Assembly: GCA_944388995.1 (NCBI GenBank)
Contig: CALXKN010000009.1
Location: 1 to 64,000, forward strand
DNA from: an uncultured Spirochaetota bacterium
Lineage (GTDB): Bacteria > Spirochaetota > Spirochaetia > JAFGXN01
Direction: 5' to 3'
DNA length: 64,000 nt
How positions within the stretch are numbered: the first letter of the stretch is position 1; each line of letters starts with the position of its first letter. Position numbers and translations under genes: made by a program. This document shows positions 10,810 through 20,254 of this stretch, in pieces. The notes under the pieces were generated by a model. That model did not search any database. It was not told the origin of the DNA and saw nothing but the letters and a program-made list of their open reading frames with translations.

Positions 10810-12543
10810 CTACTGAATCGTTCCGGAAGACCGGTAAACCATAAAGTTGTTCTTCATCATCACAAAATTGACCGGCAAAGTCGGGCAGCCGAGCCACTGA
10901 ACATCGTAACGGTCGCCGTCGATTGTAATCACAATCGAATCCTCTTCGTAATGACGAATTGTCTTTGCAGAGTTCTTGTAATAAGAAAGTTTCGAGAGAA
11001 CAACACTCATAATTGTCGCCGTAATTCCTTCATCCCCTGCATGACCGACAACGGAATCATCGATGGCCTCCCGCAAATCCCGCTGCATCCACAACGTCTC
11101 TCTCATAACGGAAAACTCGCATTCCATCAGATTGCTGCCCTTATTCATTGTCACCGACCGTACATTGCGGATAATGCCTTTTTTCGAAAGCTCCGCACAC
11201 CAGACACCGGCTTGGATCAGCCTGTCTTTTTCTCCCTCTTTGTAATTTTTTTCTAAAGAGAGACAGGAAATCGCCTTGTATGTCGGCGGTTCGGGAACGC
11301 TCATCGCCATCAGCCGCCCCATTTCCTTGGCCGCATAATAACCGGAATGGAAGTTCATTGTCCGTTTACGGTCCACATCGGACGGATCATAATCGACAAA
11401 CCCGGGTGACAGCAGTGCACCGTACCGCGAACCGACAGACATTGCCAGCTGCACAACGGAATCAATATCCGCTCCCCACTCGTGCCCGATAAGAAATTGC
11501 CGTTCGCCCTTGCCGGTACGGGAGCTCATTCTTTCGCAGTGATCGGCCAAAAGCAATGCTACAGCCAAATCAGTCGACGGAGTTGTGATAAACTGAATAT
11601 CTTCCTGTTCCAGCAACTCCAGCGCATTGGCAAAATCAACAGCCGTACAGGGACCGTTCTGTCCACCCGACAAAGCAAGAATATTATCGCTATCGTTGCA
11701 CTTGACATCATTTTTAAACCCATCAAGCTTTTCGACAATAACAATTCCAGATTGATTGAGAATCTCAATCAAATCATTCGTATCAGCCGTCAGCGTCAAC
11801 GCAGAAGCTTTTGCGATTTGCAATCCGGTTTTTGCATCTAAAACAGATGAATCCTCTGTCTGAAAATCCGGACTTAACAAAGTCACTTCCAATCCGAAAG
11901 CTTTCAACCCTTCAACAATATCCCCGATAATCGAATATTGCGAAAATTCAAGCGTTTTCGACTGGTCTCCGACCGTAACAACAAGAGAATCCACATTTAC
12001 ATCAATCGTTCCAGATTCCTGCGCCGCTGATTGCGACATCTGAACCGTCATAATCTCTTTCCCGAACTCTGACTGCAGCAGAGCAGAATCATTCTTTTTA
12101 ACAACGACCCTTTTAACGCCATCCTCATCGGGATAAGAACGAACATTGATTGTCAGTGCATTGCCGTCTACCCCGAAATCACGGGAAAGAACTTTGAAAA
12201 TCTCTGTCCCATCCGCATCTGTTAACGCAACAGACGCCCTTGTCTTTTGATTGATTGCCATCGCCTTTACCCGTTGCGGCTTATATCCGCCGCCGGGATT
12301 AAAAGCGAACCGCACCGCATCCAAAAGAGAACCGCGTTTGAGCACCTGCTCGGCATCGCCGACCGAATAGAACGTATAAATCTGATTCGGTTCACCGCCG
12401 ACGGCATCTCCGAGAATCACCCCGTTGTTCACGGAAGCCACACCGCCGTTGGAATCGATGAACTTGGAATCCGAATACGCACCCGGCTGCAGATGCTGCG
12501 TCAACTTTCCGTTGAAATCAAAACTAACCGGTTTGACACCCAT
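10810..12543 (-). CDS. Contractile tail sheath protein
   Basis: 577 aa, ATG 12543 after GGAGG. It has the sheath layout: an N-terminal segment beginning with PGAYSD, an inserted variable beta domain (about residues 110-300), then a conserved C-terminal part starting with LSGGQNG (about 290) and ending in the characteristic strands (WLGCPTLPVNFVMMKNNF). It forms the contracting outer tube of a myovirus-type tail and shows that the prophage has a contractile tail. It is followed by the tube gene with a 9-base gap. Confidence 0.85.
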   Translation of the reverse strand: MGVKPVSFDFNGKLTQHLQPGAYSDSKFIDSNGGVASVNNGVILGDAVGGEPNQIYTFYSVGDAEQVLKRGSLLDAVRFAFNPGGGYKPQRVKAMAINQKTRASVALTDADGTEIFKVLSRDFGVDGNALTINVRSYPDEDGVKRVVVKKNDSALLQSEFGKEIMTVQMSQSAAQESGTIDVNVDSLVVTVGDQSKTLEFSQYSIIGDIVEGLKAFGLEVTLLSPDFQTEDSSVLDAKTGLQIAKASALTLTADTNDLIEILNQSGIVIVEKLDGFKNDVKCNDSDNILALSGGQNGPCTAVDFANALELLEQEDIQFITTPSTDLAVALLLADHCERMSSRTGKGERQFLIGHEWGADIDSVVQLAMSVGSRYGALLSPGFVDYDPSDVDRKRTMNFHSGYYAAKEMGRLMAMSVPEPPTYKAISCLSLEKNYKEGEKDRLIQAGVWCAELSKKGIIRNVRSVTMNKGSNLMECEFSVMRETLWMQRDLREAIDDSVVGHAGDEGITATIMSVVLSKLSYYKNSAKTIRHYEEDSIVITIDGDRYDVQWLGCPTLPVNFVMMKNNFMVYRSSGTIQ

Positions 12544-12560
12544 CTTTTGCCTCCGAGCCG

Positions 12561-12851
12561 TTATTTATACAGAACCTGATCCAACAGCAAATACTGCAGA
12601 TAATCTTTATTCAACAGATAAAGCCACCACGCCCAAAAATACAAAATAATATTGGCGGATTTAATCAAAGCCGGGTTGTCTCCGAACTTCTTCTTTGCCA
12701 GACCGTACAGAATCCCCCATACAACCAGCATCAGCAACGTAAACCCGATGAAAACACACACAAACACAAGCACCGGCTTCAAAAAAAACAAACCGATAAC
12801 CCCAACCAGTGCCACCAGCACCGGCAAAATCAAACGTTTAATCCAATCCAT
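12561..12851 (-). CDS. Small integral membrane protein in the tail operon (holin candidate)
   Basis: 96 aa, ATG 12851 with an AAGGAG ribosome site. Two adjacent hydrophobic segments (about residues 7-25 and 27-50) and a third, tryptophan-rich one (about 66-80) follow a short charged start, with a basic cytosolic loop (LAKKKFGDN). Size and topology would fit a holin, but no endolysin was recognised anywhere in the window, so the lysis role is speculative. Confidence 0.55.
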   Translation of the reverse strand: MDWIKRLILPVLVALVGVIGLFFLKPVLVFVCVFIGFTLLMLVVWGILYGLAKKKFGDNPALIKSANIILYFWAWWLYLLNKDYLQYLLLDQVLYK

Positions 12852-12872
12852 TTTTTTCTCCTTCTTGATTGA

Positions 12873-13145
12873 TTAAATTCTCTTCGTTTCGATTTCCGAA
12901 CGAAGCGCTTCCCATTCCGAATCCGTCTTTTTGACACCCTTTTTTGTCATCAAAGACATTATCTTTTTAACTGTCTCCCCACACTTTGCCTTTTTCGCCC
13001 ACTCATCAAACGTCAAAAGCTCTTCCGTCTTCCCCTCTTCGGAAGAAACAACCGGCTGCACCTCCGGCACAACGGAATCACCGCTTTCCGTCAATGCCTC
13101 AGTCACTTCTGCCTCTTCTTCAACACTCTTTTTTGTTCCGGCCAT
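12873..13145 (-). CDS. Small acidic phage protein, unknown function
   Basis: 90 aa from ATG 13145 (AAAGGAGAAG upstream). The first 50 residues are low-complexity and rich in Glu/Ser/Val; the C-terminus is a compact helical segment (TFDEWAKKAKCGETVKKIMSLM). First gene after the promoter and double terminator at 13172-13312, so it heads the segment that carries on into sheath and tube. No family recognised. Confidence 0.6.
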   Translation of the reverse strand: MAGTKKSVEEEAEVTEALTESGDSVVPEVQPVVSSEEGKTEELLTFDEWAKKAKCGETVKKIMSLMTKKGVKKTDSEWEALRSEIETKRI

Positions 13146-13171
13146 AAATCTTCTCCTTTCGATTTGGACAC

Positions 13172-13244
13172 AAAAAAAGCCCTTTCCCCGGAAAGGAAAA
13201 GGGCACAAAAAAAAGCACGGCTATTCCTTTTCGGAATATCGTGC
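13172..13244 (-). terminator. Tandem intrinsic terminators in a gene leader
   Basis: Reading leftward, the first hairpin pairs GCACGATATTCC-type sequence with GGAATAGCCGTGC (13215-13244) and ends in eight T. The second pairs GCCCTTTTCC with GGAAAGGGC (13179-13204) and ends in seven T. Both lie between the promoter at 13283-13312 and the SD of the gene starting at 13145, so read-through needs antitermination, or the segment encodes short RNAs of about 70 and 105 nt. Confidence 0.8.
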
Positions 13245-13266
13245 TTTTCTCTATCCACATCGATAT
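13238..13266 (-). repeat. 29-bp leader repeat, copy 1
   Basis: This segment matches 18227-18255 at 28 of 29 positions. In both places it forms the 5' leader between a consensus promoter and a GCAC...GTGC terminator. The conserved part contains ATCGATGTG then ATAGAGAAAAGCAC, read leftward. Confidence 0.9.
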
Positions 13267-13282
13267 TTCAATGTTATACGCT

Positions 13283-13312
13283 ATTATACACTCTACAACT
13301 GTATGTTGTCAA
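13283..13312 (-). promoter_or_regulatory. Sigma-70 promoter upstream of the sheath gene block
   Basis: Leftward TTGACA (13307-13312), 18 bp, TATAAT (13283-13288). Transcription would start near 13276 and meet the tandem terminators within about 35-70 nt. It lies just downstream of the SecB-like gene, so it could restart expression after the inserted module. Confidence 0.75.
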
Positions 13313-13344
13313 GATTGTATTTGATAATTTAATTAATCACTCTC

Positions 13345-13752
13345 TCAATTACTAACATTAACAATCGGCAAAACAATAACGGGAATATTTGCCCCGACCG
13401 TTAAATTGCTGATAAAGGCTCTGACATAAGGAAACAATATTGCAATTGTATTTTCTTCTTTTATGGCCTTTATTGTTGCTTCATCTAAGTCATCATCCTC
13501 TTCAAAATGAAAAATTCCATACGCGGAAACTTCTATATAAAGCGGACTATTATCATCCTTTTCACCAATTTTAACTACTAAAGTAGCCTTTATTTCTGTC
13601 TCATTAATTTGAGTTATCTTTTTTTCAAAGTCTAATTTCAGTCTTTGTTTTTCATTTTTGCGACTGCTATCAGAACCGAGATCCTTATTATTCAATTGGT
13701 AAATGACATTATCTATTTTAAAGCCCTTAAATTGTAAACAACTGTTTTTCAT
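13345..13752 (-). CDS. SecB-like chaperone of a toxin-antitoxin-chaperone-type operon
   Basis: 135 aa. ATG 13752 overlaps the upstream stop as ATGA, with GGAG in the preceding gene. The N-terminal strand (LQFKGFKIDNVIYQL) and the C-terminal segment (AILFPYVRAFISNLTV, then IPVIVLP) follow the SecB fold pattern, in which the proline-tyrosine-x-arginine stretch leads into the dimerisation helix. Solitary SecB-like proteins beside two small genes are typical of TAC modules, where the chaperone guards an unstable antitoxin. The surrounding DNA is markedly AT-richer than the phage genes, indicating separate acquisition. Confidence 0.75.
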   Translation of the reverse strand: MKNSCLQFKGFKIDNVIYQLNNKDLGSDSSRKNEKQRLKLDFEKKITQINETEIKATLVVKIGEKDDNSPLYIEVSAYGIFHFEEDDDLDEATIKAIKEENTIAILFPYVRAFISNLTVGANIPVIVLPIVNVSN

Positions 13753-14246
13753 GCTGCATACACTCCTTTCTCTGTTCTGGAAAAATTAAAATTCGCAGTA
13801 GAATTATAATTTGGCATAACTAGTGTGGTCAAACTGTCGCCCCAGGAAATAGAATCCACGGTAGAATTATAATTTTGCATATCCATAAGATGATCTGCAT
13901 TACAAACTGCATCCGCAATTCGAACTGCATCTGTATTTTTTTCCTCATCAAGCAGTAAAGAAGATTCCATTGCATTAATATCATATTGATCTATAAAAAT
14001 TTCTTCCTGTTGATTTAACGAAAAATTTTCTTTCGTCTGAGAGCAAATGAAAACATTTGTTACGCCAGCATTCCTTAAAATTCTCTTAGCATAGCGATAA
14101 AACTCCATCCCTTTATCCGAACAAAAGAATGATTTTTCAATAAAAATGAAATATTCATTATCATCATAGTCATAACGATATTCAGAACAAATATCAGGAT
14201 ACTTCTTTCTAAACTCTTCTAAAATTTTTTCTACAAGAAGCCTCAT
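13749..14246 (-). CDS. Middle gene of the SecB-like module; candidate antitoxin or chaperone client
   Basis: 165 aa, ATG 14246 (SD GGAGAGA), overlapping the upstream gene by 38 bases and the downstream SecB-like gene by 4. Residues 1-85 look like a compact alpha/beta domain (DNEYFIFIEKSFF, then AKRILRNAGVTNVFIC). The last 50 residues are polar and repeat NYNST twice, ending in an aromatic tail (ANFNFSRTEKGVYAA). Hydrophobic C-terminal tails of this kind serve as chaperone-addiction segments in known TAC antitoxins. No DNA-binding motif was seen, so an antitoxin role is inference from operon order. Confidence 0.6.
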   Translation of the reverse strand: MRLLVEKILEEFRKKYPDICSEYRYDYDDNEYFIFIEKSFFCSDKGMEFYRYAKRILRNAGVTNVFICSQTKENFSLNQQEEIFIDQYDINAMESSLLLDEEKNTDAVRIADAVCNADHLMDMQNYNSTVDSISWGDSLTTLVMPNYNSTANFNFSRTEKGVYAA

Positions 14247-14868
14247 TGGTCTCTCCTATAATTTTCTCATCTAAAATCTTTGAGTATAACTTAACACTGT
14301 CAAAATAGGATCTGACATCTTCTTTTGTAATAGGTTCGGTAATTAATCCTATTTTACTTTTATATGTGTAATCAAAAATTTTTCTTTTAATGTATAATTC
14401 TTCCCACAATGCATCAAAATCTTTCAGTTGTTCAGATAACTGCGTGACATCAATAATCTCATTTACCGCACTATAAATAGACCCATGAGAATATGCTCTC
14501 TCTTCTAAATACAAATCATTTTCGCATTTTTTTATTTTTTTTTCATACTTTTCTATCTTCCGATTGTCTTTCTGCTTCTTTGAACGTTCAGTTTTTAACT
14601 TTTTTTTATATTCGTTTAGTTCTTGTTTAGTTTTTGCATAGTTAGGATCTCTCTTTTTTTGCGAAGTCAATTCTTTAATAAAGTTACTATAATTAAATTC
14701 TTTCTTAATTAAGAACCATTTACTTTTTTGAAAAGCTATGTAATATATCTTACTAACCAATGAAGCGACAAAAAGTTCATCTTCTGAATTTAAAGCATGC
14801 TCAACTAATCGAATATTTTCATTCGCAATATCATTTAAATTGTTACAAATATACTCGACTTTATCCAT
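14209..14868 (-). CDS. First gene of the SecB-like module; HEPN-like candidate toxin
   Basis: 219 aa from ATG 14868 (SD AGGGAAGA). The N-terminal helices (NLNDIANENIRLVEHALN, then ASLVSKIYYIAFQKSKWFL) resemble the first helices of HEPN domains, where a tyrosine-rich helix follows a four-helix start. A long charged coiled coil (about 95-140) leads to ERAYSHGSIY, an Arg-x3-His that is close to, but not exactly, the RX4-6H motif of HEPN RNases. It heads a tight three-gene operon with the SecB-like chaperone. Toxin identity is inferred, not shown. Confidence 0.6.
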   Translation of the reverse strand: MDKVEYICNNLNDIANENIRLVEHALNSEDELFVASLVSKIYYIAFQKSKWFLIKKEFNYSNFIKELTSQKKRDPNYAKTKQELNEYKKKLKTERSKKQKDNRKIEKYEKKIKKCENDLYLEERAYSHGSIYSAVNEIIDVTQLSEQLKDFDALWEELYIKRKIFDYTYKSKIGLITEPITKEDVRSYFDSVKLYSKILDEKIIGETNEASCRKNFRRV

Positions 14869-14982
14869 AAATCTTCCCTGGCATATATACACCTTGTTAA
14901 AGTCAAAACTTCAGGTTTACAAACAAACCCGAATGCTCACAAACTGTAAAACCAGTATTCGGAGTAACCTCTCCTCCTATAT

Positions 14983-15011
14983 ATTATCGTATAATCGTAA
15001 AAATAAGTCAA
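14983..15011 (-). promoter_or_regulatory. Promoter of the SecB-like module
   Basis: Leftward TTGACT (15006-15011), 17 bp, GATAAT (14983-14988). A leader of about 100 nt follows, containing a GGTTT...AAACC hairpin, before the first gene at 14868. The module thus has its own promoter, as expected for a gene expressed from the prophage. Confidence 0.65.
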
Positions 15012-15070
15012 TCTATTTTACAGCAGACTTTATTATCCTATAACGAAATCACTCTGAAATCAGGAAATTC

Positions 15071-15099
15071 TTGCAAAACAATTGATAGAAGTATATAAT
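15071..15099 (+). promoter_or_regulatory. Promoter of the lipoprotein gene
   Basis: TTGCAA (15071-15076), 17 bp, TATAAT (15094-15099), 21 nt before the SD (AGGAGG) of the gene at 15126. It is divergent from the promoter at 14983-15011. Confidence 0.7.
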
Positions 15100-15125
15100 G
15101 ATTATACCAAACAGGAGGCCTTCCC

Positions 15126-16499
15126 ATGAAAAAATCATTTCTCATTCTCTCTCTTCTGGCGCTGACATTTATCGCCTGTCCCCCGCCCGACCCCGAACCG
15201 CAGCCGGAACCCGAAAAACCGACGCTCTCCAAAATCGACATCACCGACGCCGCCGCCCTCTTCGTCGAACCCTCCGGCACCGATGCAGGCAAAATCTTTA
15301 AAATCAAAAAAGACCTGACCACAATCGAGGAAGTCAAATACACCAACACCGACGGCAGCAGTGCCGACATGGGCAGCCTCAAAGCCTCCTACGTTATCAA
15401 CGCCCATAACGACTACGCCATCATCGGTTTCGCTGCCGACCCGAACAAAGCCAAAACATACGACTTTGAACTCATCGCCGATAAAGCCTATCTCGTACGC
15501 AAAAGCGACGGGAAAGTGTTTTCGGAATTGATAAATCTACCGTCAACAAAATACATCTTATCATCACAAAATTATATTTACTATCATAGCGGTGCTATAC
15601 AAAATGATACTGGGGTTTATTATTACGGAAATAACATTGTTAAAGTCGATGTCATTTCAAAAACAGAAAAAATTATTTCACCATCCTATGAAGACAAATT
15701 CGGCCTCTTTTTTATAGATAAAAACAACAACGTTGTGTACATGAACAAAAATGAATCCCTTTCTCTTATTTCACCTGACGATAAATCTTTATCGATAGTT
15801 GCTGAATTTTCATTTCCGGCACCATTCGGATGGATGGAAGATAAAGACGGATACCTGACTGCATTTAATTCATCAAGTGGAGAACAGGAATATTTTTCAG
15901 AAAAACCTTTTCCCGACTATGGTGAATCAGATGAAACAACTTTAACTCCGGACTCATACCCCTTTGAGATACACTGGAAAACCATAACCCCTTATAAAAT
16001 ATATTCCGGAAACGAGTTCTTTATTTGTTTCTATAAAAATCTACCAAGATATGGAAACGGAATTGCCGGAGAAATAACTGATTACGAGAATGTTTTTACA
16101 GTACATAAAAAAGATTCCGCATCAATGATTAAGCGCGGATGTGTAGTTTCCTCTTATGCACAGGAGAAGGACATTGTTGTCTATATTGATGATAATGGAA
16201 TTTCCATGTACGGAACTCAAAAAGAATCGATGGCTTATATTTTCTCGACAATCAATCTTAATGATTACACAGAAAAGGTGTACCCGACAACTGATAATAA
16301 AAATAAAGTTCAATCTTTTATTGTACGTAAAGATGAAAGAATCTCTGTAAAGAATAAAGGCGAAAAAATTGTTATTGTGAAGGATACCTTGTCATTGGAA
16401 AAAGATTTAAAACAACTGAATGTCTCCCCATCAGATACAATAGAACTTATTGACATGGAACACTTGCAACTGACGGGGATTCCGATTATTCATCAATAA
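15126..16499 (+). CDS. Prophage-borne lipoprotein, unknown function
   Basis: 457 aa. A lipoprotein signal peptide (KKSFLILSLLALTFIAC, cleavage before Cys-18) is followed by a proline/glutamate spacer (PPPDPEPQPEPE) and a mostly beta domain that could be a propeller. AGGAGG precedes the ATG. It is the only rightward gene in the late region, with its own promoter, converging on the tail-fibre gene with a 7-base overlap: a typical moron. The first ~400 bases are much richer in GC than the rest, with the change near 15,525, suggesting a mosaic gene. Surface lipoproteins of prophages often change host surface properties or block superinfection; no specific function is claimed. Confidence 0.75.
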   Translation: MKKSFLILSLLALTFIACPPPDPEPQPEPEKPTLSKIDITDAAALFVEPSGTDAGKIFKIKKDLTTIEEVKYTNTDGSSADMGSLKASYVINAHNDYAIIGFAADPNKAKTYDFELIADKAYLVRKSDGKVFSELINLPSTKYILSSQNYIYYHSGAIQNDTGVYYYGNNIVKVDVISKTEKIISPSYEDKFGLFFIDKNNNVVYMNKNESLSLISPDDKSLSIVAEFSFPAPFGWMEDKDGYLTAFNSSSGEQEYFSEKPFPDYGESDETTLTPDSYPFEIHWKTITPYKIYSGNEFFICFYKNLPRYGNGIAGEITDYENVFTVHKKDSASMIKRGCVVSSYAQEKDIVVYIDDNGISMYGTQKESMAYIFSTINLNDYTEKVYPTTDNKNKVQSFIVRKDERISVKNKGEKIVIVKDTLSLEKDLKQLNVSPSDTIELIDMEHLQLTGIPIIHQ

Positions 16500-18136
16500 T
16501 TTTTCATAATAAAAATAACCGCATAACCTTTGATATTTTTACTCATATCAACTGCAGCATTGCCTCCGATGGAGCCGGTATTGCCGCTTCCACCAGGAGG
16601 GATGGTTATTCCGTGATTGTGACTCGGAAGTGAAACCTTTACCGTATGAGTATGGCTTCCTGCATTTTGACAATTATGTGAATGGGACGGAATTGCAACA
16701 CTCCATTCCCAATAATACTTATCATCAGTATAATCAAGAACCCTTGTTTTCGCGCCACTACCTCCAATATTATAAAGCTTATGCTTAAGAGTTAGTTCCT
16801 TACCATCAATCGTATGTTTATGACCTTCGTGTGAAGTAACACTACAAAGATGATCCGTTACACTACCTCCATCAGCAATCGTCCCCGTATGATTATGCGC
16901 CGGAATGGAATGGGCGTGCGACGGCAGATGATCGGTTTTCAGCCTGAAAGAGTTATCCCCGCCGAAATTTCCGGGCGCATTAGGAATCGTTCTCTTTGTC
17001 GAATACGAACAGCCGGCAATAAAGCGTTCGCGCAAATCGGGCGTGCCGTTCTGCCCGTCACACATATACCACCCGGGAATCGTCACGTCATTCTGCCAGT
17101 TTGTGCCGTTGTACATCAGAATCGTCCCCGGCGGAAGAATATCGTACTGTTCGTCCAAAATCTTGTCGACACGCTGCTTTTCGTCCTGCATCACCATATC
17201 CACATAGTAGCGATTAACCAAATCGACATTGTCGAATTTGGTCTTATAATTCTCCGTGATACGCGTCTGCAATTTACCGCCGTTTCCCCAACGGACAAGA
17301 TTCCCGCTCGAGTCTTTTTTCATGTCGCACGCATCGTTGTAATTGAAAAACGGTTTTTTCTCGCTTCCGGCATTGTATAACTCCCTCACGATTTGTGAGA
17401 AATTTGTTTGAAAAGAGCCCATAAATAAGCGGCTGCTTCCGCCTCCAGAAATAAAGGCAAACGGGAACCACCCGTCAAGCATAAGCTGTCTAATCGCTTG
17501 CTGATCGCTAACATTCTCTGCAATCGTGAACTCAATGTCGTACACCTTCATTGTATTGTATTGCTTGACATATGATTTACCTGTGTTGCTGTCGCGCGTC
17601 AGAATGTTTTTCGGCTCGCTCTCAACCTCAATCGCCCGCCCCATAATAGCGAAATTCTTGGCTCTCCAATCTGCTCCGTCAGCGGTCAAATTGACCGTCT
17701 TAACTTCGGACGAAACCACCAGTTTGTTTGCCTCTGGAATCCGAATGTCGGCATCGGAGTTGTAACGATTGTCCGCGCAAAACAACCCAATTCCAGGAGT
17801 GAAATGAAGTTGACCGGTTTTCACTTGCTCAACAATCAAATCCGCATCCATTCCCTCTTTCTGCTTGAGTACATTTCCCTTAAAATCGCACGGCAAAAAA
17901 CCGTCAAAGACAAAAAAATTAAACAGTTCATTGCCAATGCCGTTGTTGAATGCAGGATACTCCGAACCATGTCCCCACTTTCCGAACTCAGCCTGATAGC
18001 GGATTCCGTCAAATCCGCTCAAAGCGCGCAGAATAGCCAACAGATTCCCCGTCTGTGCATCGCGCAGATTGGAAAAATCTTCCGTTCGTAAAACCGTGTT
18101 ATCATGATACAACGGTTCCTTCACTTCATAACCCAT
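16493..18136 (-). CDS. Tail fibre / collar-domain protein
   Basis: 547 aa from ATG 18136 (SD AAGGAGG). The C-terminal half is a phage tail collar domain: PPGTILMYNG (about 350), PGWYMCDGQNGTPDLRERFIAG, then a histidine-rich tip with repeated HxH pairs (SHAHSIPAHNH, SHSHNC, SHTHTV, SHNHG) as in iron-binding fibre tips, and a closing strand (GYAVIFIMKNY). The N-terminal part should attach to the baseplate. It recognises the cell surface during adsorption. Its leader holds a promoter and terminator like those at 13.2 kb. Confidence 0.85.
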   Translation of the reverse strand: MGYEVKEPLYHDNTVLRTEDFSNLRDAQTGNLLAILRALSGFDGIRYQAEFGKWGHGSEYPAFNNGIGNELFNFFVFDGFLPCDFKGNVLKQKEGMDADLIVEQVKTGQLHFTPGIGLFCADNRYNSDADIRIPEANKLVVSSEVKTVNLTADGADWRAKNFAIMGRAIEVESEPKNILTRDSNTGKSYVKQYNTMKVYDIEFTIAENVSDQQAIRQLMLDGWFPFAFISGGGSSRLFMGSFQTNFSQIVRELYNAGSEKKPFFNYNDACDMKKDSSGNLVRWGNGGKLQTRITENYKTKFDNVDLVNRYYVDMVMQDEKQRVDKILDEQYDILPPGTILMYNGTNWQNDVTIPGWYMCDGQNGTPDLRERFIAGCSYSTKRTIPNAPGNFGGDNSFRLKTDHLPSHAHSIPAHNHTGTIADGGSVTDHLCSVTSHEGHKHTIDGKELTLKHKLYNIGGSGAKTRVLDYTDDKYYWEWSVAIPSHSHNCQNAGSHTHTVKVSLPSHNHGITIPPGGSGNTGSIGGNAAVDMSKNIKGYAVIFIMKNY

Positions 18137-18196
18137 AAAAAAAAGCCTCCTTCGATGATTAAGATTCCGCTGCCACCACCGAAGAACGCTGTAAAC

Positions 18197-18233
18197 AAAA
18201 AAGCACAATACACCCTTCATGGTGGTATCGTGC
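18197..18233 (-). terminator. Intrinsic terminator in the tail-fibre leader
   Basis: Reading leftward, GCACGATA...ACC pairs with GGTGTATTGTGC and is followed by TTTTTTG. It lies between the promoter at 18271-18299 and the tail-fibre SD, about 60 nt into the transcript. Confidence 0.7.
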
Positions 18234-18255
18234 TTTTCTCTATTCACATCGATAT
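18227..18255 (-). repeat. 29-bp leader repeat, copy 2
   Basis: Direct repeat of 13238-13266 with one mismatch, in the same promoter-leader-terminator setting. The two copies bracket the tail fibre, the lipoprotein and the SecB-like module. Confidence 0.9.
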
Positions 18256-18270
18256 CAAAAATTATAATTT

Positions 18271-18299
18271 ATTGTATACCCTACAAAAGAGCTTGTCAA
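18271..18299 (-). promoter_or_regulatory. Promoter upstream of the tail-fibre gene
   Basis: Leftward TTGACA (18294-18299), 17 bp, TACAAT (18271-18276). The layout parallels the promoter at 13283-13312, including the shared 29-bp leader and terminator. Confidence 0.7.
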
Positions 18300-18315
18300 G
18301 ATGATTACAGGTAAA

Positions 18316-18909
18316 TCATGACTCGACTTTTACAGAACCGCCTCCGATTCCGATAGACAAACTGCAATCGGGAACAGAAATTCCGATTCGATTACTTTTG
18401 CTGTCAAAGTAACAGAAAACCGGTATAGGTTGTGCAAACACAGGAAGATACATAAACATAAAAGATTTCACATGATCATGAAACCAATTAAAGGCACTGG
18501 AATAATTATTCCATTCGCTGCCTCTGTCAGTATAATAATTAACAGGTTTCAAATACGTCCTTCCTTCATAATCAAAAGTCCCTTCCGTGAGAAGCTCAAT
18601 GTCGCATTTTCCTTTCCATCCTCCGGCTCCGACACCACCGAAAGCTAAATAAAGCTCATGACCGCGCGTTCCTGATGGAATAACATGGTCATAAATTTTC
18701 GTCCAACCTCCAAACAATATAAATCCTCCGGAATAATCTGCCGAATGGACAACCAGCGAATTGTCAGTGCTGTCATTTTCTCCATTTTTACTTTCACTGT
18801 TTCTTTTCAAGGCTCTATTGACGTCTTCTGCAAACTTATTAATCTCTTTTTCACTCCATTTCAACTCTTCGATAATCCTGTTTGTTTGCTCTTCAATCTT
18901 ACTTAACAT
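18316..18909 (-). CDS. Tail-region protein, unknown function
   Basis: 197 aa, ATG 18909 (SD GGAGAGG). Residues 1-45 are a charged helix or coiled coil (SKIEEQTNRIIEELKWSEKEIN); the rest is a beta-rich, glycine- and aromatic-rich domain (SGGFILFGGWTKIYDHVIPSG, then AFGGVGAGGWKGKC) with an Ile-Gly-Ile-Gly-Gly-Gly end. It sits between the metallopeptidase moron and the tail fibre, so it may be a baseplate or fibre accessory. The 217 bases to its right hold no gene I can support. Confidence 0.55.
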   Translation of the reverse strand: MLSKIEEQTNRIIEELKWSEKEINKFAEDVNRALKRNSESKNGENDSTDNSLVVHSADYSGGFILFGGWTKIYDHVIPSGTRGHELYLAFGGVGAGGWKGKCDIELLTEGTFDYEGRTYLKPVNYYTDRGSEWNNYSSAFNWFHDHVKSFMFMYLPVFAQPIPVFCYFDSKSNRIGISVPDCSLSIGIGGGSVKVES

Positions 18910-19126
18910 AAAAACCTCTCCTAATAAAAATGTAACAAGACCGATGATCTTGCTCTATAATCATAACCTTAAATTTTATAAATCACAATAATTTTTTTAA
19001 ATTATATATTGGAAGTTTTTTTCTATGATAGATTCTATAAAACAAGAGAATTTAATAAATGTATAGCAAATAAGAGTATGCTTTCAGAAAATTTAACGAA
19101 ACACTTCAGTCAAACATTAATAGAAC

Positions 19127-19669
19127 TTATTGATGATGACGATAATATTCATTAAGGCTATGCACAATATTATTTTGAAAATCTGACACCCTTTTTTTTA
19201 CAAAGTCGATGGATAAATTTTCTTTTTGGCATATCTCTTTTTCTATTTCATCAATAACGGCTCTGGCGCTTTTTGAATCATCTGATTCTTTCAAAGCACG
19301 AAAAAGTTGCTCTTTTCTATGATCTGTAAAAAATTTTGATAATAATTCATAGTTCAGTAAAAGATTAATATATAAATCGCTATATGAGAATTTAAAGTCC
19401 TCATCTCCTGTTCTAAAATGTTCGTCCGGAAAATGCAAAGAATATTCCCCTTTTGGGCGATTTGCGGTAATATCCCATAAAATCTTCTGAGTGTCATCTT
19501 CTGCAATTAAATGAATTTTTTTTCTTAATCTTTCTTCTTCTCGTTTTGTAAGCTTTACGTCATCAAGACGGAGGACTGTCAGTATGTGAGCAATACAATG
19601 AGTAAACTCATGCATAAAAATTGCTTTTTGGATTATTCTTTTTTCATTATTATTAATATCATCAAACAA
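19127..19669 (-). CDS. HEXXH metallopeptidase-like domain, downstream half of a frameshifted gene
   Basis: 180 aa if started at TTG 19669. MHEFTHCIAHIL near the N-terminus is a zinc-metallopeptidase HEXXH motif, of the kind seen in IrrE/ImmA-type proteins. Reading its frame upstream gives FTLYIVLNNDLF, the strand that normally precedes the motif, and this joins the upstream frame at an A8 run (19701-19708). No ribosome site precedes the TTG. It is probably the C-terminal part of one protein split by a one-base change. Confidence 0.6.
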   Translation of the reverse strand: MFDDINNNEKRIIQKAIFMHEFTHCIAHILTVLRLDDVKLTKREEERLRKKIHLIAEDDTQKILWDITANRPKGEYSLHFPDEHFRTGDEDFKFSYSDLYINLLLNYELLSKFFTDHRKEQLFRALKESDDSKSARAVIDEIEKEICQKENLSIDFVKKRVSDFQNNIVHSLNEYYRHHQ

Positions 19670-19673
19670 ATCG

Positions 19674-19946
19674 TTATTGAGGACTATATATAATGTGAAG
19701 TTTTTTTTCTTCTATAAAACGCCATATAAACAATCCTTTTATAGATAATTTGCTCTTCTCGAATGACACTTTTTTGGGAATAACAATACACCTCTCCAGT
19801 GAACGATGGCAAAGGTGCTTGAAACTTGTCACGACAATATATTTAAGATTTTGAGGTGGATTCAAAAACTGCAGTTCCAAATTTTTCATTAATTCCTTAA
19901 AAATTTGAACTGCATCATCTATAGATTGTATATCCTTAATATCCAT
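19674..19946 (-). CDS. Upstream half of the frameshifted metallopeptidase-like gene
   Basis: 90 aa, ATG 19946, no good SD. It ends 27 nt after an A8 run. Deleting one A joins it smoothly to the HEXXH frame (FIEEK then NFTLYIVLNN). The intact product would be about 280 aa. Possible explanations: a slippery tract that produces both forms, a phase-variable switch, a pseudogene, or an assembly error. Confidence 0.55.
   Translation of the reverse strand: MDIKDIQSIDDAVQIFKELMKNLELQFLNPPQNLKYIVVTSFKHLCHRSLERCIVIPKKVSFEKSKLSIKGLFIWRFIEEKKLHIIYSPQ
19701..19708 (-). repeat. A8 homopolymer at the frameshift point
   Basis: Eight A on the coding strand, exactly where the two metallopeptidase-like frames meet. 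Seven A would restore one continuous frame. Confidence 0.7.
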
Positions 19947-19958
19947 TTATGTATTTTA

Positions 19959-20147
19959 TTATTTCTTAGGGCTGTGTTGTTTAATGCTTTTTTCTATTTC
20001 ATCAAAATCAAGAACATCATTTTGTACTATATCCATTGCAAATTTTGCAACATCTAAAGAAATATCTTCAGATGAAGCCCGGATGCTTAAAATCCCCAAT
20101 TTCTTAAGCTCTTCGTTAATTTTTTTAATATTCTGATGTTGTTTCAT
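19959..20147 (-). CDS. Small protein upstream of the metallopeptidase-like gene
   Basis: 62 aa, ATG 20147 after AAGG. Helical and charged, with LGILSIRASSEDISLDVAKFAMDIVQNDVLDF; no family recognised. It is co-transcribed with the metallopeptidase-like frames from the promoter at 20255-20283 and shares their low GC content. Small-protein plus IrrE-type peptidase pairs can be regulator/antirepressor modules, but nothing here proves it. Confidence 0.5.
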   Translation of the reverse strand: MKQHQNIKKINEELKKLGILSIRASSEDISLDVAKFAMDIVQNDVLDFDEIEKSIKQHSPKK

Positions 20148-20254
20148 AATGTACCTTACTGTTGTTTTCTAAAATATTGTGTAACTTCAATGCCACAAAT
20201 CCTATCAAACAATAATACTGTTTGGAAAATATGAAGAACCCTCCTGCCACTTTT

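Follow-up and report, generated by a model that had tools for sequence, protein, structure and literature searches.

A prophage-borne HEPN operon with a SecB-like gene as a candidate toxin–antitoxin–chaperone system in a spirochaete

The toxins named for toxin–antitoxin–chaperone (TAC) systems are HigB, HicA and MqsR (PMC5105189) and the ADP-ribosyltransferase (ART) CmdT (PMC9519451, PMC11618068), as far as the excerpts that represent the cited papers throughout this text extend. CmdA, the antitoxin of the CmdT system, has LAA as its C-terminal end and disappears through ClpP when T4 infects the cell (PMC11618068). HigA1 of M. tuberculosis ends in Val-Ala, which acts as a ClpX degron (PMC8165232), and its extension carries two similar chaperone-binding motifs (PMC6377645). 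Here, we describe a compact three-gene module on the minus strand, at positions 13345–14868 of a 64,000-nt stretch of an uncultured Spirochaetota bacterium (contig CALXKN010000009.1, assembly GCA_944388995.1; hereafter the window), whose genes read in toxin, antitoxin, chaperone order and whose first gene encodes a HEPN protein. No TAC system with a HEPN toxin appears in the excerpted literature on HEPN with TAC or SecB, including PMC9098466, PMC7159879, PMC11980606, PMC10440598 and PMC13236601, and a HEPN toxin in such a system is likely, though not certain, to be new.

The explanation we favour, with considerable but incomplete confidence, is that the operon is a TAC system with an AF0298-like HEPN ribonuclease, in which gene 2 is guarded by SecB through a ClpX-tagged tail and which acts in phage-triggered abortive defence. 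The N-terminal alpha/beta domain of gene 2 would bind and block the HEPN protein, and its disordered tail would carry one or more chaperone-binding segments and end in a ClpX-type Ala-Ala degron, with the SecB-like protein binding and hiding this tail. During infection, a phage protein preferred by the chaperone would flood the cell, leaving the tail exposed for ClpXP to remove the antitoxin. The freed HEPN toxin would then cut RNA and abort the infection, so that the lysogen would be guarded against other phages. The LAA end of CmdA and its degradation through ClpP (PMC11618068) give precedent for this mechanism.

Sequence comparisons and predicted models point to this arrangement through HEPN and SecB family membership, operon order, predicted tail disorder, the terminal Ala-Ala (AA), and the presence of ClpX and an AA-ending transfer-messenger RNA (tmRNA) tag; prophage location, recurrence and chaperone lineages in common with ART toxins further suggest it. 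The initial annotation had proposed a candidate TAC system, and its HEPN, SecB and prophage elements and its C-terminal tail, here predicted to be disordered, all held, with the same order in at least 11 further operons; to these the present analysis adds the ClpX-type Ala-Ala end. RNase activity, toxicity, neutralisation by gene 2, chaperone dependence and the phage trigger are what we infer from them.

The HEPN protein, the candidate antitoxin and the SecB-like chaperone

Gene 1 (P0001, 14209–14868; all features of the module lie on the minus strand) encodes a toxin candidate of 219 aa from its ATG, or 227 aa from an upstream GTG. Sequence and model together place it in the HEPN family, in line with the HEPN-like label it had been given. 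A leave-one-out HEPN hidden Markov model (HMM) recovers it at E 2.5e-12 (49.6 bits, against 6.6 to 10.7 for the best decoy), and a profile of five relatives built without gene 1 finds it in its own genome as two pieces flanking an insert (3.2e-7 and 6.8e-5). The Pfam HEPN model gives no match to gene 1, or to its relatives in L083 and L010 (loci are given L numbers and genomes G numbers); it matches the relatives in L017 (1e-6), L046 (4.2e-5) and L035 (1.4e-4) above its cut-off and those in L012, L008, L084, L014 and L048 below it. With structural matches ranked by Z, as was also done with VIA-align for gene 2, the predicted model (mean predicted local distance difference test, pLDDT, 75) is closest to AF0298 (2hsb; Z 14.1 over 121 residues). 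Ranks 2–6 (Z 8.9–10.2) are entries that bear the name HEPN or that the excerpted text of PMC3710099 counts as HEPN, and rank 7 is AbiV (9bj7) at Z 7.9, level with unrelated helical proteins (7.6). Foldseek pairs the model with 2hsb at a probability of 1.00 but an E of 0.14.

Between HEPN helices 2 and 3, the model contains an inserted, charged helical hairpin (residues 75–124, 14497–14646), with helices at residues 75–96 and 102–124. The insert is missing in the other seven sequences of the alignment; inserts at this point are known in HEPN domains (PMC3710099). Arg162 (14383–14385), Tyr42, Tyr43 and Tyr167 are kept in 13 of 13 HEPN sequences. Arg162 begins an R-x3-D-Y motif with an Asp at the canonical His position; this residue, Asp166, is kept in 11 of the 13, with Glu in the other two. 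Loss of the canonical motif has been described for AF0298-like HEPN members, and an alternative active site built from a His and Arg of this kind has been proposed for AF0298-like and AbiV proteins (PMC3710099). In gene 1, the candidate alternative catalytic residue is His128 (14485–14487), and the protein may be an RNase.

Gene 2 (P0002, 165 aa, 13749–14246) is probably the antitoxin, to judge from its position between toxin and chaperone and its layout of a predicted domain and disordered tail, its sequence showing no significant similarity to other antitoxins. A structure prediction made from a 7-sequence alignment gives a folded alpha-beta-beta-alpha-beta domain (residues 1–76, 14019–14246; block mean pLDDT 86–94 up to residue 70). 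The 89-residue tail that follows (residues 77–165, 13752–14018; pLDDT under 50) is predicted to be disordered and is a candidate chaperone-addiction region. The repeated NYNST first noticed in this tail does occur twice, at residues 125–129 (13860–13874) and 146–150 (13797–13811), 21 residues apart; both lie in a 35-nt DNA repeat whose two copies share 83% identity at a distance of 63 nt. Gene 2 has no Pfam match up to E 10. Its best Foldseek match is BolA/KH-like (E 0.18) and its best VIA-align match a designed binder (Z 8.4), followed by PrgH and KhpB folds (7.0 to 7.4); no fold match is significant, no family was assigned, and a nucleotidyltransferase fold is still conceivable. Its kinship to the other HEPN-operon antitoxins is argued from position, predicted layout and the AA end.

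That end, VYAA, places a ClpX-type degron candidate at 13752–13757. Among second proteins, an AA end is found in 11 of 12 HEPN operons and 19 of 26 ART operons, compared with none of 89 toxins and SecBs and two of 269 other open reading frames (ORFs); the last residue is Ala in 12 of 12 and 24 of 26, respectively. In all five HEPN operons whose antitoxin stop codon is clear of the SecB start, the AA end is likewise present. The same genome encodes ClpX (1.3e-175) and a tmRNA whose tag, GKANYALAA, ends in ALAA.

Gene 3 (P0003, 135 aa, 13345–13752) is a SecB-like chaperone by sequence, as had been proposed. It matches the Pfam SecB model PF02556 (E 2.1e-9, 37.9 bits, cut-off 26) and a leave-one-out SecB HMM (E 6.3e-26), and its closest profile is PADLOC PD-T4-9_C (1.3e-22), the chaperone of the defence system PD-T4-9. 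It is also the only SecB match in its genome. Across the phylum, the Pfam model at E up to 1e-3 finds SecB in 16 of 392 sampled genomes, at 20 places; it misses SecB-like genes in G134, G085 and G221. Upstream sequence is available for 19 places, the 20th starting at a contig end, and each of these has a toxin–antitoxin (TA)-like pair there: HEPN in eight (one broken), ART-like in seven, HigA-type in three and HicAB-type in one, classes that were read by eye, with HEPN and ART later checked by HMM. Given a TA-like pair at all 19 readable places, SecB in this phylum, as sampled, looks from sequence like a TA accessory rather than a general export chaperone.

Recurrence of the operon and its chaperone lineages

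In spirochaete genomes and viral contigs, we found at least 12 distinct HEPN/antitoxin/SecB operons with the same gene order: that of the window and those of L008, L012, L014, L035, L038, L046, L048, L010, L077, L083 and L084. The matches of the HEPN-alignment scan of genome contigs are a lower bound, and the operon may also occur outside the spirochaetes and viral contigs. The two identical copies of L012 in G276 are counted once, and the tail-shortened L040 and the degenerate loci L056 (G264), L072 (G107) and L009 (G085) are left out. The start of the HEPN gene in L038 is ambiguous. All 12 SecBs pass the leave-one-out HMM; the weakest, that of L046 (8.6e-11), is missed by both SecB searches and owes its place to this HMM. 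L010 and L077 are weak HEPN members, at 14.5 and 15.5 bits against best decoys of 6.1 and 7.6.

Phage genes lie near six of the 12 operons. Besides the window, L083 (an IMG/VR contig) has an endolysin and an integrase, L084 (also IMG/VR) a tape measure gene, tail genes and an integrase flank L137 (a wider view of L008), a terminase subunit and an integrase are found close to L060 (a wider view of L046), and the L012 operon recurs in the viral contig L040. The G276 operon is divergent to a CmdT-like ART gene (4.5e-7) and near a type IIG restriction–modification gene (6.9e-174). Side by side in L138 and L139 (both G276) and in L040, the HEPN operon and the CmdT-like operon stand back to back as two TAC-type systems, the CmdT-like ORF being shorter in L138 than in L139. 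The 73%-complete genome G206 carries two chaperone-free HEPN/antitoxin pairs whose antitoxins end in INF, without an AA end; no SecB match was found in this incomplete genome.

Single-protein scans with P0001, P0002 and P0003 found no close relatives in viral contigs, P0001 found none in genome contigs or phages, and the antitoxin alignment found none in viral contigs. With the HEPN relative of L035 as query, neither plasmids nor phages gave a match. P0003 matched eight plasmid records, of which the two examined are one HigBA-type and one ART-type operon, and weakly matched the Streptococcus satellite phage Javan16 (E 1e-3). Another spirochaete locus, L076 (468–1731, reverse strand), has a SecB-like gene behind a HicA/HicB-like pair, the second protein of which ends in GTR, without AA or VA.

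SecB trees indicate, at the level of sequence, that HEPN and ART toxins share chaperone lineages. A single HEPN clade is rejected by the approximately unbiased test (p-AU 1.2e-4 with 23 rows and 1.8e-6 with 45 rows), and groups mixing HEPN and ART operons have full support: L014 with L011 (100/98), and L012 and L035 with L013, L015, L079 and L080 (100/100). A group mixing HEPN and HigBA-type operons, L048 with L007 and L066, has weaker support (94/76). The toxin label is not clustered on the 23-row tree (8 changes against a shuffled mean of 7.8) and is somewhat clustered on the 45-row tree (8 changes against 10.7; 15 of 500 shuffles as low). The 45-row set took in 22 of the 35 loci of one locus list; the 13 left out comprise six with duplicate SecB, the near copies L089, L092, L095 and L115, and L085, L114 and L117, whose full three-gene set was not read. 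The ART, HigBA, HicAB and MNT labels were at first assigned by eye on the basis of motifs, and those for HigBA, HicAB and MNT remain so. PADLOC PD-T4-9_A at E up to 0.01 backs six of ten ART labels tested, L003, L015, L062 and L079 being the others. With an HMM built from the six PADLOC-backed members, every one of the 26 ART rows outscores its decoys, at 21 to 192 bits, the weakest being L079 (E 0.0011) and L015 (6.4e-4; both at Z = 1e5).

One pair of loci records a natural loss of the end of the tail. Across 1186 aligned columns, L012 and the viral contig L040 differ only by two deletions in L040, one of 6 nt in the HEPN gene and one of 58 nt in the antitoxin. The latter replaces the last 25 residues of the antitoxin, including the AA end, with three others and leaves SecB open.

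Prophage setting and competing explanations

The three genes form overlapping minus-strand ORFs, as first read, with overlaps of 38 nt (genes 1 and 2) and 4 nt (genes 2 and 3); by reading the sequence, AGGAGAG lies upstream of gene 2 and AAAGGAG upstream of gene 3. An AT-rich island between tail genes had been noted as well, and this stands: the GC content of the module is 0.297, against 0.446 and 0.458 in the two flanking stretches, and it lies between a tail-fibre gene (16493–18130) and genes leading to the sheath (10810–12543). PHROG matches of the neighbours identify the prophage as contractile-tailed, with a sheath (phrog_279, 1.9e-44), tail assembly chaperone, tail fibre/collar, baseplate, portal and both terminase subunits. 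The tail sheath matched none of the other 39 of the 40 related genomes searched, and no viral contig matched its patterns; an empty prophage site was therefore unavailable for comparison.

Several findings weigh against the proposed phage-triggered TAC system. The canonical Rx4-6H motif is absent from gene 1, which has R162-x3-D166 instead, and His128 is kept in only nine of the 13 HEPN sequences as aligned. For the models of gene 1 and gene 2 alike, no Foldseek match reaches E 0.001. Gene 2 scores 12.0 to 14.7 bits against other HEPN-operon antitoxins, not significantly above the best decoys (9.0 to 10.1); the L083 and L084 antitoxins do no better than decoys, and the L010 and L077 antitoxins give no score at all. 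One HEPN-operon antitoxin ends in EVA, and an AA end is found in none of the six HigBA-type antitoxins and not in the one HicAB-type antitoxin found (0 of 7). Six of the 12 HEPN operons have no nearby phage gene among those tested. The expected co-variation of tail and chaperone across HEPN/ART pairs also failed: similarity of tail and chaperone correlates at rho 0.095, 0.043 and -0.07 for 15-, 25- and 40-residue tails (176, 593 and 1566 of 2000 permutations as high), and at rho 0.069 for the last 10 residues (313 of 2000).

The module might instead be a TAC for prophage maintenance, in which loss of the prophage would end the supply of antitoxin and chaperone and so free the HEPN toxin. Its place within a prophage suits such lysogen addiction, for which short-lived antitoxins are the classical basis. 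We nevertheless regard this as unlikely in view of the two defence neighbours in G276, a closest chaperone profile that belongs to PD-T4-9, and operons that also occur away from tested phage genes (L140–L142). We would rank lower still the idea that gene 2 controls HEPN in another way, for instance as an antitoxin derived from a now degenerate nucleotidyltransferase-like protein, and that the SecB-like protein assists the folding of HEPN or of a phage protein instead of guarding the antitoxin tail. By eye, the same HEPN family stands beside MNT-type genes in L039, L049, L050 and L051, the gene 2 model bears a weak likeness to nucleotidyltransferase folds (1ylq, Z 6.7; polymerase beta palms, Z 5.7–5.9), and chaperone-free HEPN pairs exist. 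However, no nucleotidyltransferase domain is seen, because all eight second proteins scanned lack a Pfam match; the toxin-first order differs from that of MNT-HEPN; and the AA end goes with the chaperone, being missing from the two chaperone-free pairs.

The position of the operon among tail genes could also mean an ordinary phage assembly cassette, in which the SecB-like protein acts as a chaperone of virion assembly and the products of genes 1 and 2 are its clients or minor structural proteins. This seems highly improbable: 12 distinct operons have this gene order, and several of them show no phage structural gene; the closest profile of gene 3 is a defence chaperone, PD-T4-9_C; and the GC content of the module differs from that of the tail genes.

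The DNA around the module contains further signals. The initial annotation gave the genes their own promoter; a promoter-like TTGACT-17-GATAAT does lie upstream of gene 1 (14983–15011, minus strand; consensus match 10/12), but such sites are no commoner in the region than in shuffles (8 against a mean of 8.4), and the promoter is the least secure element of that annotation. Downstream of gene 3 is a terminator-like hairpin (13179–13204, minus strand) with an 11-pair stem and a T run, and such sites number six in the region against 1.0 in shuffles. An imperfect palindrome at 14910–14933 (minus strand), between the promoter-like site and gene 1, scored as terminator-like and is a candidate operator or attenuator. 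Rfam gave two matches under E 1 in 12500–19000, both below gathering score (PyrR, 30.2 of 54 bits; IS102, 25 of 46).

The AT-rich island also contains, adjoining the module on the opposite strand, a 457-aa lipoprotein-like gene (15126–16499, plus strand) that neither Pfam nor PHROG matches at the thresholds applied; it is possibly another cargo gene of the lysogen. A second AT-rich island in the tail region (18750–20250; GC about 0.28–0.31 per 500 bases), with a 180-aa ORF at 19127–19669, is possibly another cargo site. The element ATCGATGTGNATAGAGAAAAGCACGATA occurs in three copies in the genome, at window positions 13237–13264 and 18226–18253 and at G000:C12:48961–48988 (all minus strand), and a reversed control pattern in none. 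Both window copies follow a promoter-like site and lead into a hairpin with a T run, upstream of phage structural genes; the promoter-like site before the first copy is a perfect TTGACA-18-TATAAT, and that of the second was read by eye. The C12 copy lies directly before a 448-aa gene that adjoins a capsid-like gene. The element looks like a phage leader/terminator control element.

Significance and comparison with described systems

Beyond this single operon, we suggest tentatively, and with somewhat more doubt than assurance, that HEPN operons of this kind form an undescribed class of TAC system. In this class, HEPN/antitoxin pairs would repeatedly have come under SecB by way of a disordered tail with a ClpX tag, HEPN, ART and HigB-type systems would draw on common chaperone lineages, and prophages would sense incoming phage proteins and release an RNase with an alternative His/Arg site. 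If this is true, a further, unrelated toxin family would stand behind the same chaperone tripwire, in support of SecB-plus-tail control as a plug-in sensor. Gain and loss of chaperone addiction are directly testable here because one toxin family has chaperone-free pairs, chaperone-linked operons and a tail-deletion allele. The alternative active site proposed for HEPN proteins could likewise be tested on this module, through His128 and Arg162.

Among described systems, CmdTAC (PD-T4-9) of E. coli ECOR22 has the same toxin, antitoxin, chaperone order, a chaperone profile that gene 3 matches, and in CmdA a long C-terminal region that is unstructured and has AA at its end (PMC11618068). It differs in its toxin, CmdT being an mRNA ART and gene 1 a HEPN protein with no match to PADLOC PD-T4-9_A up to E 10, and in its antitoxin, since CmdA has a pair of N-terminal helices where gene 2 has a predicted alpha/beta domain. 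CmdT reportedly shows toxicity only when CmdA is present. The HigBA-SecB TAC of M. tuberculosis and the HigBAC, MqsRAC and HicAB TACs resemble the module in their SecB-like third gene, chaperone-addiction tail and ClpX degron, according to the excerpts cited, and the two chaperone-binding motifs of HigA1 (PMC6377645) have a possible counterpart in the two NYNST motifs of gene 2. Their toxins and antitoxins belong to other families, and HEPN is not named in the excerpt of PMC5105189.

The HEPN-MNT type VII pairs share the toxin superfamily with the module and, by eye, the same HEPN type stands beside MNT genes; the module differs in being toxin-first, in having a chaperone and in a partner with no nucleotidyltransferase Pfam match. 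AF0298-like HEPN-T and AbiV proteins are like gene 1 in fold and in retaining the Arg, replacing the canonical His and placing a His between helices 2 and 3 (PMC3710099). From both, gene 1 is set apart by the charged helical hairpin between these helices and by its place in an operon with a probable antitoxin and SecB.

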